Origin: a virus
DNA length: 28,270 nucleotides
Reading direction: 5' to 3' (one strand)
IMG/VR virus record: IMGVR_UViG_3300030101_004594
Coordinates: 59,905 to 88,174 of that record
Each line of letters begins with the position of its first letter. Positions within the stretch are counted from its first letter, which is position 1. This document shows, piece after piece, positions 511-11,655 of this stretch. Made by a program: the position numbers and the translations under genes. Below the pieces are notes generated by a model that was given only the letters and a program-made list of their open reading frames with translations, did not search any database and was not told the origin of the DNA.

Positions 511-918
511 CTAAACATACTTGTATTTTTCTTTAGGATCCATAGCAAGATAAAATATACCTAATACTAAAGCTAGAACTAAATAAACAGCTGACATCAT
601 AGTCAATGCATTTGCATTAGCACTTGTTAGTGCATCATATGCTGAATACAATGATATTCCTGTTGCTGTAAAAGCTAGTAAACTAAGACATCCAACAAAT
701 TTAGCCATAAATGTCTTTTTTTTCTTATATAAATCTTTCTTTACTACTTTTTCTTTAATAGTAGTTCTTGTTTGTAATTCTATTACAAAGCATAAGATTA
801 ACAGTTGATACTGACGAGTTCTTATTTCTGATTTACCCCAAGAATCGTAACCTACTGCAAGGCCGATTACTTTTTCAAATTGTAAATCTAAATTGATTCT
901 TTTGTCTAATAATTGCAT
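511..918 (-). CDS. Two-helix membrane protein, function unknown
   Basis: A 135-aa protein. The first 65 residues are mostly polar and basic, ending in a lysine-rich stretch (KKDLYKKKKTF) just before the membrane. Two hydrophobic segments follow, at about residues 72-93 (FVGCLSLLAFTATGISLY) and 105-125 (MMSAVYLVLALVLGIFYLAM), and then a short charged tail. By the positive-inside rule the lysine cluster should sit in the cytoplasm, giving a hairpin with both ends inside. The ATG at 918 is the only early start in frame. It is read leftward with its neighbours and is separated by about 80 bp from the tRNA-like element upstream. No family is recognised. Confidence 0.6.
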   Translation of the reverse strand: MQLLDKRINLDLQFEKVIGLAVGYDSWGKSEIRTRQYQLLILCFVIELQTRTTIKEKVVKKDLYKKKKTFMAKFVGCLSLLAFTATGISLYSAYDALTSANANALTMMSAVYLVLALVLGIFYLAMDPKEKYKYV

Positions 919-1001
919 GATTTTATGGTATTAGTTTATAAATAAATAAAAGCAGTTTGTCTACATGCTTAGGTATACGACGAATATCACGTCTTTTCTT
1001 T

Positions 1002-1076
1002 TGGTGGCAGTAATAGGATTCGAACCTATACATTCCAGGGCCATCATAAGAGCTATCATTCCTATGTGGTACTGCC
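1002..1076 (-). tRNA. tRNA-like element with encoded CCA, non-canonical body
   Basis: On the minus strand the ends are those of a tRNA: a perfect 7-bp acceptor stem (GGCAGTA with TACTGCC), discriminator A, encoded 3' CCA, and a perfect T arm with the invariant loop (ATAGG-TTCGAAT-CCTAT). Total length is 75 nt, as expected. The middle 40 nt do not form normal D and anticodon arms: I find no 5-bp/7-nt anticodon arm with U33 and good pairing. The best fold is instead one long hairpin of about 10 bp (CCACATAGGA with TCTTATGATGG, one bulged A, 8-nt loop). A weak alternative places anticodon GGC (Ala) in an arm with a mismatch. It may be a degenerate tRNA, a D-armless tRNA, or a tRNA mimic. Confidence 0.6.
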
Positions 1077-1085
1077 ATATTACTC

Positions 1086-1274
1086 TTAGCAATCACAATA
1101 GTGATCGCCAGAATGTTCATTTAAACAATTTTCATAGCCAAGATTATGTATAAAATTATACAATTGAGGTTCATTAAGTCTTAATTGTTGGGCTAATGCC
1201 ATCATAAGATCTTGAACTTTGTCTATATTGTTTAAACTTTCAGGAGTAACTTCTAATTCTATTTCAATTTTCAT
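1086..1274 (-). CDS. Small acidic protein with cysteine/histidine tail
   Basis: A 62-aa protein starting MKIEIELEVTPE. An upstream in-frame ATG at 1319 would add 15 residues (MVYKNKLLLTIK...), but it lies right after the U-tract of the terminator at 1331-1358. The start at 1274 sits in a typical A/T-rich Bacteroidota context, so I prefer it. The body is probably alpha-helical (residues 14-45), and the C-terminus carries C-x5-H-x3-H-x-C-x-C (residues about 51-62), which could bind a metal. It ends 9 bp before the tRNA-like element. No family is recognised. Confidence 0.55.
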   Translation of the reverse strand: MKIEIELEVTPESLNNIDKVQDLMMALAQQLRLNEPQLYNFIHNLGYENCLNEHSGDHYCDC

Positions 1275-1330
1275 AATAAAAAATTTAATGGTTAATAATA
1301 ATTTGTTTTTGTACACCATTATAGAATTAA

Positions 1331-1358
1331 TAAAAAGAGCTGAGAGCTTGACTCTTTA
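1331..1358 (-). terminator. Intrinsic terminator of the large left-arm RNA
   Basis: Reading the minus strand, AAAGAG (1357-1352) pairs with CTCTTT (1339-1334) around a 12-nt loop that can pair further internally (AGAG/CTCT), and five U residues then AUU follow. It would end a leftward transcript covering 1359-2333. Confidence 0.6.
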
Positions 1359-2333
1359 CGTACAGATTAATTAGGATTTCTCCAACTATCTCACATAGAC
1401 TATTTCTAATCTATACTGTACATGTTCACGAATTAAGATGTTCGCCATCACTACTTGTTGTGGTCATAAGTTCATATTCATACCGCATGCCTTACGAGCC
1501 TAAGAGGGTGTCCCCTCACTACAGATACTACTAAATCCCTTCAGAGCAAGCCTTGCGAGCTATCTCTGTCCCCATATTACAGAGGAATAAGAACATTGTT
1601 GCCTTTAATGGGCTCACAACAGTCTCAGAGTTAATTTTGCTTTTAATTAATTAATTCTTGGTTTTAATTTTTTGCCAATCCAATGGCTTTAAAAACGGTT
1701 CAGGTAATTGACAGAAGACACTCAGAGTTTATATGTCCATGCTTCCTTTTGGGAAGTTTAGGTCATTACTCCTATCTGCTTTTGCTTGTCACGGCTACTA
1801 ACTAAATCATTATTTATGCGAACACGTAATTTCTTACAGCATTCTAAACAAATCATCTAATATCAGCTCTAAGTGCGACAACACTATAGTACCAATACTT
1901 ATCACAATTCTTATTGCCTTTTAAGCTCAAGAGCACGCCTGTCGTACTCTCTATATAACTCACGCACCCGAAGGGATTTGACGTTGCCATTATATAGATA
2001 TTGTAATACCTTTCTGTGAAATACGTACAACCGAAGTTGTAAATATCCCCAATGAGTTCCAAGTCATTTGGGTTTATACCATTACTGGTTTATCCTATGC
2101 TCCGAAGGCGAGCTAATACATTCTATAGACACTAATACTCAGTCAAGCTGAGATATAAGCCACGGTATGTATCAAACGTTATATGGATTCTCACCATATT
2201 ATGACTCACGGGTACTTGATAAAGAATGAATTCTATGTATCTTCTTTCAATCAAGGTAGAGACTTATGCGCAACTCTGTCCCCGTGGCCTATAAACTAGT
2301 GATCAGTTAATTTATAGGACTTTTTAATATTTT
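1359..2333 (-). ncRNA. Candidate large structured RNA (about 1 kb)
   Basis: No convincing gene lies here, yet inverted repeats are dense and look like RNA on the minus strand. Examples: ACAAC-UUCG-GUUGU (2027-2040); CCC-UUCG-GGG region (1967-1975) enclosed by a 9-bp stem 1950-1958/1990-1998; ACCA-GUAA-UGGU with a GNRA loop (2078-2089); an 8-bp stem 2288-2295/2311-2318; a long-range stem GCCACGG/CCGUGGC (2282-2288 with 2159-2165) closing about 115 nt; CUUCC/GGAAG near 1742-1756; CUCUGU/ACAGAG near 1564-1584. Both boundaries are terminators. The size, neighbouring tRNA-like gene and phage setting resemble giant ornate RNAs such as GOLLD or ROOL, but I cannot match their consensus by eye. Exact 5' end is unknown. 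Confidence 0.5.
1485..1560 (-). repeat. Pair of near-identical 15-mers inside the large RNA
   Basis: Plus-strand GCATGCCTTACGAGC at 1485-1499 and GCAAGCCTTGCGAGC at 1546-1560 match at 13 of 15 positions and are 61 nt apart. Each is nearly self-complementary, which suits loop-loop or dimer contacts in a folded RNA. A GAGGG-GACA-CCCTC hairpin lies between them. Confidence 0.45.
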
Positions 2334-2399
2334 AAAAAAGAGAGGCGCAAGCCTATTAGGAGCTACCTAATCGACTGTAACCTAGGATAGCCTCTCTTT
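2334..2399 (-). terminator. Intrinsic terminator overlapping the end of the 37-aa ORF
   Basis: On the minus strand AAAGAGAGGC (2399-2390) pairs perfectly with GCCTCTCTTT (2346-2337), and a run of six U residues overlaps the 3' arm (2339-2334). The apical part is 43 nt long with internal CCUA/UAGG pairings, and it contains the stop codon of the small ORF at 2382-2384. It separates the two structured blocks of the left arm. Confidence 0.7.
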
Positions 2400-2495
2400 A
2401 TGCTTTTTCTTGCGATAGTACTTAGACTTATCACGATGGATCTGCTTTTTACAAGCTTCCTGAATTTCTTGTTGTGTTACTACGATTTTTTTCAT
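2382..2495 (-). CDS. 37-aa highly basic peptide
   Basis: ATG at 2495-2493 opens a 37-codon frame ending in TAG at 2384-2382. The product starts MKKIVVTQQEIQEACKK and ends in a run of lysines, arginines and histidines (YYRKKKHKERLS). The N-terminal half could be a helix and the tail a nucleic-acid-binding patch. The start context is A/T-rich (TTTACATTATTATG), as for other starts in this genome. It is flanked by folded RNA on both sides and its 3' end lies in a terminator. It could be an RNA- or DNA-binding micro-protein or a leader peptide. No family is recognised, and chance occurrence of a 37-codon frame cannot be excluded. Confidence 0.5.
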   Translation of the reverse strand: MKKIVVTQQEIQEACKKQIHRDKSKYYRKKKHKERLS

Positions 2496-2793
2496 AATAA
2501 TGTAAATTTAGCTATAAACTGTGCAACCTATGTGCACACAATTAATTCTCTTACAAGGTTGCAACCCTTGATCACATAACCCTTAGTTTTCAGGTAGAAT
2601 TATACCGACATTGATATAATTATCTTAATAACTTTACTGCAATTGGATAAGAGAATAAAGAAAGTCAGAGTCAACAGAATCGTATTCGGGTAACTTAAAT
2701 CAAACATAACATACTGCAGATACATTATGCTATTCATCAAGGAATGGTGACCATTCATAACTTTCAACCCATCAACTCTTTATTATATAAAAC

Positions 2794-2817
2794 AATAAAG
2801 AGGCTAGACTGCCTCTT
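2794..2817 (-). terminator. Possible terminator with competing hairpin
   Basis: Minus-strand AAGAGGC (2817-2811) pairs with GCCTCTT (2804-2798) around a 6-nt loop and is followed by UAUUGUUUUAU. The 3' arm can instead pair as CTCTTTATT (2802-2794) with AATAAAGAG (2784-2776). The two folds exclude each other, as in attenuators. Confidence 0.4.
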
Positions 2818-3124
2818 GCCCTCTGACTTAATATTATAAAGGCAATTATCAAGATTTACACCACTATTAACTTACGCTATCTAGTTTTATATTCTAGATA
2901 TTAAAATAGCCTATGATTGCTTATCTTAGAAGCCGAAGCAACTAAAACAATTACAAATGATTAAGGTTGCAATGACATATTGCCTTTATAAAAAATTAAG
3001 CCATAACAATTAAATGCTACGACTTATCAATGCTTTAAGCATTAGGATTCACGATGGAATCTAGCGTGGTCAACACGCCATCAATAATTACGAAAGTATT
3101 CATGATTATTCATTAAAGTGCACA

Positions 3125-3151
3125 GAAAAGAAACCTGCATCACGGAGCAGG
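3125..3151 (-). terminator. Possible intrinsic terminator
   Basis: Minus-strand CCTGC (3151-3147) pairs with GCAGG (3138-3134) around an 8-nt loop, directly followed by UUUCUUUUC. The stem is short, so this is tentative. It would end a transcript coming from the 101-aa gene. Confidence 0.4.
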
Positions 3152-3253
3152 AGCCGACCTTTTTAGTAGGATTTACGTAACGCTTTGTATATAATGCTAG
3201 CTTGTACGTCCACAGCGCTATCACCTGCGTGGAGGTTTACTATATTATATACA

Positions 3254-3285
3254 CGAGCACGTCTCGAAGGCCGAAGGCCTGCTCG
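3254..3285 (-). promoter_or_regulatory. Strong hairpin directly after the 101-aa gene
   Basis: CGAGCA (3254-3259) pairs with TGCTCG (3280-3285), and within it AGGCC/GGCCT (3268-3280) forms a 5-bp stem with a 3-nt loop. The hairpin starts at the base next to the stop codon. There is no U-tract, so it more likely protects or processes the mRNA 3' end than terminates. Confidence 0.5.
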
Positions 3286-3591
3286 TTAGAGCAAGTCCTT
3301 CACAGCAACCCACGTGCTCGCGCCTACTGTTAACTTCGTGCGAGCCTCGCCATCGTTGTTAGTAGTGTGACACACGCTGAACTTCTTGAGCTCCTCATTA
3401 GAGAGAACTTGTCCTGCCTCAAACTGCTCGGCAGTAGATTTAGACATGTAGATGTTCTCGCTCTTGTTAGCACCGTCAATGATGCGAATCATTGTGATGA
3501 ACTTGTAGCCGTTCTCGTTAGCACGTACTGTAGGTACGATGTCAGTAATTTTTTCGTCTGTGCAAAATTTTGCAATGTTAATGTATTCCAT
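3286..3591 (-). CDS. Conserved-looking 101-aa protein, first gene of the leftward arm
   Basis: A 101-aa protein (MEYINIAKFCTDEK...) with alternating beta-type segments: residues 16-22, 28-38 (YKFITMIRIID), 43-50 (SENIYMSKS) and 85-96 (KLTVGASTWVAV). This reads as a small beta-rich fold. Its DNA is visibly richer in G and C than the rest of the window and uses C-ending codons, which suggests high expression. It is the first gene transcribed leftward from the divergent region, with a long structured leader (3592-3660) and a hairpin at its 3' end. From memory, similar short proteins with an 'ENIYxSKS'-type motif occur in crAss-like genomes, but I know no function. Confidence 0.75.
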   Translation of the reverse strand: MEYINIAKFCTDEKITDIVPTVRANENGYKFITMIRIIDGANKSENIYMSKSTAEQFEAGQVLSNEELKKFSVCHTTNNDGEARTKLTVGASTWVAVKDLL

Positions 3592-9198: not shown

Positions 9199-11655
9199 AT
9201 GAGCAAAACATCTAGTTTAGAAGATCAAGGATTTATTAATTTTCCAAGACAAAAATTATCTGATGCTCAGAAAACAGATGCTTGGTATAAAAGAAATATA
9301 GATTACGCAGAAAATTTATTAACATCAGATGTTAATCTAAGAAACAGTTTTAAAAATAAAAGGATTAACTATAATCTAAGAGCTAATGTAATATCTCCTA
9401 GAGATTTTGAAAAATTTATTAATCCTGATAATCTAGACTTAGATTCTTTACCAGCTAGCTTCCAACATATAGGAATTGAAAACACAAAAATTAATTTACT
9501 TTTAGGAGAATACGCAAAACGTAAAAAAGAATTTAAAGCTTATATCTCATCAGGAGATCAAGAAGGCATATCTAGAAAAGAACAACAATTAATGGACCAA
9601 GTCACACAAGAAATGGTTCAAATTATTCAAACAGAATCTATAAGTTCTGAAGAAATACAAAAAAGATTACAAGATCTTGAAAAATATCAAAACTACAATT
9701 TTCAAGATATGAGCGAAATAGTTGCTAATAAAATTCTTAAAAAAGAATATAAAGAAGGTAACTTTGATTTTACATTTCTTAGAACATTTGAAGACTTACT
9801 TACAGCAGGTGAAGAAATAATGTATTGCGGAGTATTAGGAGGAGAGCCTGTTATGCGACGAGTTAATCCAATGAATATATATACTCTTGGAGGAAGTTCT
9901 ATGTTTATAGAAGATGCAGATATTATTGTAGAATATGGTTATAAATCTGTAGGAGGAGTTATAGACGATTACTGGGATACTCTTAAACCTAAAGATATAG
10001 ATTTTTTAGAAAAAGGAACTGTAGATACAAGTATGGACGGTGGAGGCGGAATAGGCCTTAACCGTGATATTTCTATATTTGATTTTTACGGAGAAGCTGG
10101 AGCATTAGATATATTTCATCCTAATGAAGCAGGTGTTAGAACATTTGCAGGAGCATTTGATTCTTATGGCAATGTAAGAGTTATGAAAGTATGTTGGAGA
10201 TCTAGACGTAAAATTGGAGAGCTTACTTATTTTGATGATGAAGGTGTAGAACAAAAAGATTGGGTTCCTGAAGATTATAGGCCAAATAAAGAACTTGGAG
10301 AAAAAGTAAAATGGATATGGGTAAATGAGTGGATGGAAGGTACTAAAATTGCTGACCATATTTATACTACTATGCGTCCTGTACCATTTGCTAGTAAATC
10401 ATTAGTTAATAAATCTAAAGGGACCCCTCCATATATTGGCTCCGTTAATTCTACTAACGATTATAAAGTCCAATCTCTTATGGACATAATGAAGCCTCTT
10501 GCATATTCCTATGATATTGCTTACTACAAACGAGAGCTTGAAATAGCCACGTATAAGGGGTCCTTTACTGCTATTAATTCTGCACTTGTTCCATCAGGAT
10601 GGGATCCAAAAGAATGGATGAGATATGTAACAGTAAATAAATTTGCTTGGTTAGACCCAACTAATGAAATACTTAAAGGTCCTGCACAAGGTAAATCTGC
10701 AGGTAATTTTAATCAACTTACTGCACAACAAGTAAATATAGGAGATCCTAATGCAATTGGTATGTATACTAATTTACTCGTAGATATAGAAAACACATTA
10801 GGTAAAATAGCAGGTGTTTCTGGAGCACGAGAAGGACAAATACAAAATAGAGAAGCAGTTAATAATGTAGAACGTGAAGTAGCTCAAACATCTCATATTA
10901 CAGAAAAATGGTTTGCTATAGATCAAAATTTTAGAAAAAGAGTTCTTACTAAATTTTTAGAATGTTGTAAATATGCATATAAAGCAAACCCTCAAAAAGG
11001 TCAATTTTTACTTGACGATCTCAGTCAACAATTTATTACTCATTTCGATGAATTTGCTTCAACAGAATATGATTTGCATTTATCTAATTCTACAAGTGAT
11101 ACACAATTGTACAATGATATTAAAGCGCTTTCACAAGCAGCTATACAAAATGGCCAAGCAACTATTTCAGATTTAGTAGCTATATCACAATCTGATTCTG
11201 TACAAGACATTGCTAAAAAGCTTGAAAACTCTGCTCAAAGAATTAAAGACGAAAATAATAAAATGCAAGAACAGCAGATGCAGCAACAACAGCAAATGCA
11301 ACAAGCTCAAATGCAAGCTGATAAAGAAGCTCAAGAAATTGATCTTAAAAAACATGACGATGATATAGCTGTTAAAAGAGAAAAAATTAAAGCTGATTTA
11401 GAAATAGCAGCTATGAAAGAAATAAATAATAATTATCGTACTGAATCTGGTTTATTAGATTCTGATCGTAATGGTATTGCAGATGAATTAGATCTTAGAA
11501 GAACAGAAGTAGAAGAAGAAAAGAATATTCAAAAAGCAGAACTAGATCAGGCTAAACTTCAAGAACAAATACGTTCTAATCAGGCTAAAGAAGATATTGC
11601 TAGAGAAAAAATGGGTCTTGAAAAAGAAAGAACTCAAGCAATTAAAAACAAATAA
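9199..11655 (+). CDS. Portal protein
   Basis: An 818-aa protein directly after TerL and before the scaffold and capsid genes, the usual portal place. Its length fits the large portals of crAss-like phages. A long N-terminal and central part (to about residue 640) has the mixed strands and a helix-rich middle expected for clip, stem and wing; 'INLLLGEYAKRKKEF' (residues about 97-112) is typical of this portal group. The C-terminus is a glutamine-rich coiled coil (about 690-815) that could line the inside of the head. It carries a calcium-loop-like motif at D754-x-D756-x-N758-G-x-x-D762. Portal dodecamers are the DNA entry and exit channel. TAGATTTG at 9167-9174 may be a promoter box. Confidence 0.88.
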   Translation: MSKTSSLEDQGFINFPRQKLSDAQKTDAWYKRNIDYAENLLTSDVNLRNSFKNKRINYNLRANVISPRDFEKFINPDNLDLDSLPASFQHIGIENTKINLLLGEYAKRKKEFKAYISSGDQEGISRKEQQLMDQVTQEMVQIIQTESISSEEIQKRLQDLEKYQNYNFQDMSEIVANKILKKEYKEGNFDFTFLRTFEDLLTAGEEIMYCGVLGGEPVMRRVNPMNIYTLGGSSMFIEDADIIVEYGYKSVGGVIDDYWDTLKPKDIDFLEKGTVDTSMDGGGGIGLNRDISIFDFYGEAGALDIFHPNEAGVRTFAGAFDSYGNVRVMKVCWRSRRKIGELTYFDDEGVEQKDWVPEDYRPNKELGEKVKWIWVNEWMEGTKIADHIYTTMRPVPFASKSLVNKSKGTPPYIGSVNSTNDYKVQSLMDIMKPLAYSYDIAYYKRELEIATYKGSFTAINSALVPSGWDPKEWMRYVTVNKFAWLDPTNEILKGPAQGKSAGNFNQLTAQQVNIGDPNAIGMYTNLLVDIENTLGKIAGVSGAREGQIQNREAVNNVEREVAQTSHITEKWFAIDQNFRKRVLTKFLECCKYAYKANPQKGQFLLDDLSQQFITHFDEFASTEYDLHLSNSTSDTQLYNDIKALSQAAIQNGQATISDLVAISQSDSVQDIAKKLENSAQRIKDENNKMQEQQMQQQQQMQQAQMQADKEAQEIDLKKHDDDIAVKREKIKADLEIAAMKEINNNYRTESGLLDSDRNGIADELDLRRTEVEEEKNIQKAELDQAKLQEQIRSNQAKEDIAREKMGLEKERTQAIKNK

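Follow-up and report, generated by a model that had tools for sequence, protein, structure and literature searches.

Sequence comparison supports a divergent GOLLD RNA in a crAss-like phage

INTRODUCTION

To our knowledge, GOLLD is among very few natural RNAs known to form protein-free cages. A tRNA close to the RNA is an arrangement known for this family. In an account that cites earlier work, the GOLLD RNA of a Lactobacillus brevis prophage is reported to accumulate in lytic infection and to be dispensable for phage production. For GOLLD env-38, cryo-EM revealed a closed 14-mer RNA-only cage, with the 5′ and 3′ domains as cap and ring (PMC12286853). ROOL is also a cage-forming large RNA located near tRNAs (PMC12286853). 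In addition, Vibrio phage ICP1 produces an abundant ~0.8 kb RNA, predicted to be non-coding, from a 1-kb gap without ORFs, and its authors likened it to GOLLD and ROOL on length only (PMC7567579).

Here we describe an RNA in a 28,270-nt stretch of phage DNA (the window; positions 59,905 to 88,174 of IMG/VR record IMGVR_UViG_3300030101_004594), and coordinates below are those of the window. This RNA resembles GOLLD in its length of ~1 kb, its phage origin, a 3′ domain with the same helices, a variable AU-rich linker, a 3′-terminal CUCAG hairpin, a less conserved 5′ domain and tRNA or tRNA-like neighbours. It differs in scoring 52 bits against a family cut-off of 150, in belonging to a separate Crassvirales subclade, in the invariant UGAUCA loop of its clade's 5′-terminal hairpin, and probably in an L21a-like loop that reads GACA where GOLLD has a self-complementary dinucleotide. 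With ROOL it shares the character of a large ornate phage RNA, but positions 900-3300 gave no Rfam match to ROOL at E-values up to 5. Going by its published description, the ICP1 RNA is comparable in length and in its gene-free phage gap. Our reading of the whole, in which we have high confidence, is that of a divergent and accessory GOLLD that would be transcribed leftward as its own unit, form an RNA cage and spread by recombination.

RESULTS AND DISCUSSION

Gene content and folding of the locus

The original prediction placed a large structured RNA on the minus strand, between two terminators and in a region without a believable gene. The longest minus-strand ORF in 1331-2333 has 69 aa and a TTG start, and indels truncate or frameshift this frame in relatives, so that the region is indeed free of a credible gene and no conserved ORF was found across it. 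The minimum free energy was lower on the minus strand (−268.7 kcal/mol) than on the plus strand (−218 kcal/mol), and half-length pieces gave folding z-scores of −2.6 and −2.9 on the minus strand and −0.8 and −0.9 on the plus strand. However, control windows of the same phage reached −3.8 and −4.4, and folding energy was dropped as evidence because these controls scored equally well or better. The RNA is judged real because of its conservation and covariation, folding energy alone being weak. On these comparative grounds the ~1 kb element at 1334-2321 (−) is confirmed as a real structured RNA, and the predicted strand agrees with the lower folding energy. Both predicted terminators are likely as well. 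That at 1331-1358 doubles as the 3′-terminal hairpin of GOLLD, and it is also a likely intrinsic terminator because a U run comes after it (Table 1).

Table 1. Parts of the RNA and features around it in the window
Feature	Position	Strand	Basis
GOLLD RNA, ~988 nt (supported assignment)	1334..2321	−	Approximate ends set at the terminal hairpins; whole-length homologues, covariation
GOLLD 3′ domain	1337..1776	−	RF02032 model 1-416
Conserved 3′ core	1421..1597	−	R1 match
3′-terminal hairpin, loop with conserved CUCAG	1331..1358	−	Aligns with relatives' GGUCAA-CACUCAGCC and with the Rfam model end
Variable A+U-rich linker between 5′ and 3′ domains	1631..1672	−	Variable in relatives; corresponds to an AU-rich part of the RF02032 consensus
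5′-domain motif: covarying 4-bp hairpin, then GAUAA-ACCA-GURA-UGGU-AUAAA (GNRA hairpin)	2070..2118	−	20-mer, stem covariation
Long-range closing stem CACGGG (2281-2286)/CCCGUG (2207-2212)	2207..2286	−	6/6 paired; one G-C to A-U double change
5′-terminal hairpin, palindromic loop UGAUCA	2288..2318	−	Two-sided changes in 7/11 pairs; loop identical in 6/6
Upstream hairpin AAAGAGAGGC...GCCUCUCUUUUUU	2334..2399	−	Fold; probably terminates the small gene before it
Segment missing from close relatives	1082..2396		Empty site in L005, L012, L013, L015, L080
Gene of a 37-aa basic protein	2382..2495	−	Homologues near GOLLD in other phages
77-aa ORF within the indel	1086..1319	−	Homologue upstream of GOLLD in L109
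tRNA-like element, encoded CCA	about 1001..1076	−	Normal acceptor and T arms

Homologues of the RNA

A terminase search of viral contigs gave 79 loci, most of them without the RNA; among these loci, L011 has a partial copy (95% identical) and L025 has a copy 59% identical over 650 nt. The conserved 20-mer of the 5′ domain occurs in 29 viral stretches. Whole-length homologues were found in L091, L086, L087 and L082 with DNA identities of 74-81% (the first three about 79-80% over ~1 kb, L082 74%), L093, L108 and L109 are 83% identical over 780 nt, and a remoter set of 20-mer carriers is 57-61% identical. Further carriers were gathered by a core-pattern search. From 11 relatives of this remoter set, none of them from the window's clade, we built a covariance model, R1. 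Matches to R1 occur in contigs of 176-413 kb, and also in clostridial MAG contigs in which a tRNA lies immediately upstream of the core. Two further matches, of 98 bits, lie in unannotated records of Prevotella Lak megaphages, L167:1659-1848 (Lak-B1) and L168:1664-1853 (Lak-A1). The core-pattern scan of bacterial genome contigs returned 14 stretches, three of which have convincing R1 matches, and no host for the window's phage emerged from these 14. BLAST of the window's RNA and of two relatives against 50,697 named phages gave no match. By eye, L129:6570-7560 (−) has a 5′ part like that of the window's clade and a core like those of other groups, and may be a mosaic. A weak second match of the RNA, of 31 nt, lies in the phage's own genome.

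Relationship to GOLLD

An Rfam scan had been proposed together with the original prediction. In its ordinary form, cmscan of the window returned neither GOLLD nor any other Rfam match to the RNA. The GOLLD model RF02032, run on the window's own record, did match: 1337-1776 (−), which is 61241-61680 minus of the record, aligned with model positions 1-416, the full length, at 52.2 bits and E=3e-14, which is significant but below the gathering cut-off of 150 bits, a limit that governs reporting and does not describe structure. On control genomes the same model gave nothing above the cut-off. R1 matched the window at 1421-1597 (−) with 114.8 bits and E ~1e-22, and the next best match had 16 bits.

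At least six of the 11 R1 sequences match RF02032 themselves, two by direct scan (L100, L103) and four by record search (L083, L092, L102, L105). Among the others, L107, the core of which is identical to that of L090, was missed by RF02032; L088, L094, L097 and L110 complete the set. Individual E-values were 3e-31 for L102, 4e-31 for L103, 3e-26 for L100 and 5e-14 for L098, all of them at scores under the gathering score. In 30 carrier records, 21 matched RF02032 with E <1e-11, none above the gathering score and the best with 122.6 bits; several R1 carriers were missed, among them L107 and three members of the window's clade (L086, L091, L093). Since no collected sequence reaches 150 bits, the connection with GOLLD sequences above the threshold depends on E-values. 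In a tree of the core, the window falls in a subclade of eight rows with support of 91/98, and L098, a RF02032 match, groups with this clade. In sequence comparison the subclade has its own 5′ domain, which differs strongly from that of other GOLLD RNAs.

The empty window scans first gave the impression of a novel class of large RNA that has no relation to GOLLD and shares some helices by convergence; this idea was dropped once relatives, and then the window's own record, matched GOLLD. The strongly different 5′ domain, the score far under the gathering cut-off and the same-clade carriers that RF02032 misses would also suit such a class. Against it stand the full-length RF02032 match and the R1 match, the alignment of the RNA at ~59% identity across 650-800 nt with L100 and L102, which match GOLLD, and the place of the GOLLD-matching L098 in the core tree. 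We therefore regard an unrelated class as very improbable, and the comparisons support a divergent GOLLD of a Crassvirales phage. The original prediction had left a divergent GOLLD or ROOL member or a new class side by side, and the RF02032 and R1 matches favour the first, as a GOLLD. R1 reveals RNAs of the GOLLD type in several lineages of crAss-like phages as well as in Lak megaphages, including carriers that are negative with RF02032 (L086, L091).

Covariation and corrected helices

Covariation, suggested at the outset as a check, is strong. Across 43 distinct sequences of the core, 36 of the 45 pairs show two-sided compensatory changes, and 95.9% of core cells are paired against 73.9% in shuffles, with 0/500 shuffles as good, although this alignment leans towards the model because it was fitted to the model's structure. 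Within the window's clade (seven sequences), two-sided changes were seen in 52 of the 217 predicted pairs. A conserved 3′ domain with covarying helices, as in known GOLLD RNAs, is thus present in the R1 match and the core pairs, together with a length of >800 nt, a 5′ domain of lower conservation and an AU-rich linker that varies.

Individual helices of the original prediction were revised. The 9-bp stem described as enclosing a UUCG hairpin covaries (columns 129-137/167-175). Among the tetraloops, the GNRA hairpin stood, with ACCA-GUAA-UGGU invariant in the clade, but GCUCGCCUUCGGAGC closes a 7-nt loop with four base pairs and is not a UUCG tetraloop. The long-range stem GCCACGG/CCGUGGC is present, but an A-C mismatch breaks it in four of six relatives. 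As closing stem it was replaced by CACGGG/CCCGUG, which is better supported among relatives.

Phage, distribution and probable horizontal exchange

The major capsid protein matches PF23898 (Crass_capsid) with 289 bits at a cut-off of 27, in agreement with the predicted crAss-like phage, and its nearest named relatives are ~30% identical. The RNA is thus encoded, like known GOLLD, in a phage and near a tRNA-type element, the phage having a Crassvirales capsid and the neighbour being tRNA-like. In the open-access literature searched, with subscription journals mostly outside the search, we found no paper in which GOLLD is mentioned alongside crAss-like phages, or alongside either the pistol or the hatchet ribozyme; the family is known, and its occurrence in crAss-like phages is without a report found in that literature.

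Among 49 records of close relatives, many of them fragments, only one has an R1 match. In L005, L012, L013, L015 and L080, window position 1081 is joined straight to 2397 with 2 nt overlap. The empty site is flanked by a small gene and the tRNA-like element, hence no gene is interrupted. Such an intergenic empty site speaks against an intron, and no Rfam match to ROOL, OLE, HEARO or group I or II introns was found in 900-3300 at E-values up to 5. Despite the comparable size, the phage context and the precise insertion site, these other large RNAs were ruled out, and we give them almost no weight.

That nearly all close relatives lack the RNA, and that its RF02032 score is under that of other GOLLDs, could also be read as the sign of a degenerate GOLLD remnant without function. 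However, compensatory changes keep the pairing, even on the branch of the window itself, neither the GNRA hairpin nor the palindromic loop varies within the clade, and copies in distant phages keep the full length, so that we consider a remnant highly unlikely. A functional divergent GOLLD would probably add to fitness under some conditions without being essential, because most close relatives are without the RNA. The dispensability of the L. brevis GOLLD fits such an accessory element. Close relatives that either have or lack the RNA at one and the same site offer natural material for testing its function.

Carriers of the same subclade have terminases only 28-35% identical to that of the window, over part of the protein length, whereas their RNAs are 74-84% identical to the window's. 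A plain protein search found the window's capsid in one of eight carrier records, and the capsid profile found diverged Crassvirales capsids in several. In the stretches kept as loci, the DNA common to carriers and window consists mostly of RNA elements: GOLLD, the tRNA-like element (97% in L086) and a small RNA at about 2545-2658 (96% in L091), with further short pieces at 941-1001, 347-383 and 11267-11319. Because the RNAs are so much more alike than the terminases, GOLLD has probably moved horizontally between distantly related crAss-like phages, apparently in company with other small RNA elements. This movement would probably proceed by recombination, often near the tRNA-like element, small RNAs and the small basic gene.

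Predicted transcription and assembly

In our model the RNA would be transcribed leftward as a separate unit flanked by the two terminators, and the transcript would fold into 5′ and 3′ domains. By analogy with GOLLD env-38, copies may then self-assemble into a hollow particle made of RNA alone, in which the linkers point to the inside, and the window's RNA probably forms an RNA cage of this kind. As cargo, components of the ribosome or the phage's own tRNAs and tRNA-like elements would be candidates.

The contacts within such a cage may differ from the published ones. In the window's clade, the putative counterpart of the symmetric kissing loop L21a has the sequence GACA and is unable to pair with itself, so under this mapping one or more of the published contacts may be absent and quaternary contacts may differ. 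If this loop indeed lacks self-complementarity, the RNA might stay monomeric, or work together with a protein such as the 37-aa basic neighbour, instead of forming an RNA-only cage, and a small basic protein gene does recur beside GOLLD. Yet this gene is also present in relatives without GOLLD, one GOLLD assembles protein-free (PMC12286853), and the invariant palindromic loop UGAUCA of the 5′-terminal hairpin suggests self-contact. A monomer or protein complex is accordingly a serious but rather unlikely alternative to the RNA cage.

Neighbouring RNA elements and small genes

In several other phages, pistol ribozymes lie downstream of GOLLD, all on the same strand. They begin 5 nt past the GOLLD match in L103:2050-2111 and L084:3451-3512, ~170 nt past it in L152:603-664, ~280 nt in L083:4605-4666 and L099:1979-2040, and ~400 nt in L143:1434-1498. 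A record-wide search found four records with a pistol, exactly one each and beside GOLLD. Since L103 hardly differs from L084, and L083, L099 and L152 are closely related, these amount to about three independent cases. Separately, hatchet ribozymes precede GOLLD in the same orientation in L098:9177-9379 and L132:12676-12809.

The tRNA neighbourhood noted earlier holds in so far as an element at about 1001-1076 (−) is present, but it is an odd tRNA-like element, with a long hairpin instead of the D and anticodon arms, and not a tRNA island. This element is 94-97% identical in several phages, the distant L086 included, and in L129 it follows GOLLD directly, with ~9 nt between it and the 3′ hairpin. 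Where other phages have ribozymes or the tRNA-like element at the ends of GOLLD, the window has terminators. The recurrence of pistols and tRNA-like elements there suggests how a cage-forming RNA may acquire its ends. Tentatively, and with some doubt on our side, GOLLD in crAss-like and large phages could be part of an exchangeable set of RNAs with ends made by swappable processing elements, and the window's subclade could use its UGAUCA loop for subunit contacts, giving a cage unlike the 14-mer. Downstream, the swappable element would be a pistol or a tRNA-like substrate of RNase P, and upstream a hatchet; plain terminators could take their place, as they do in the window.

Homologues of the 37-aa protein are encoded near GOLLD in L086, L093, L108, L109, L097, L082, L091 and L090, and the gene lies on either side of GOLLD in distant crAss-like phages. 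A small structured RNA at 2546-2655 (−), UACUCUCAUCCAAGCAGG ... CAAGGGUUGCAACCUUGUGAGAGUA with a variable middle, has no Rfam match and is new. It was found in 13 copies from 12 sources, with compensatory changes in its outer stem and hairpin, in phages with and without GOLLD, and L065 has two copies.

Conserved non-coding stretches common to other crAss-like phages were also observed at 270-410 and 930-1003, both with ordinary folding energies. In the former, a AACAAGGU/ACCUUGUU stem encloses a variable part. At 2991-3050 (−), the conserved end of a small ORF is followed by a terminator-like hairpin, the stem of which varies with compensation among relatives.
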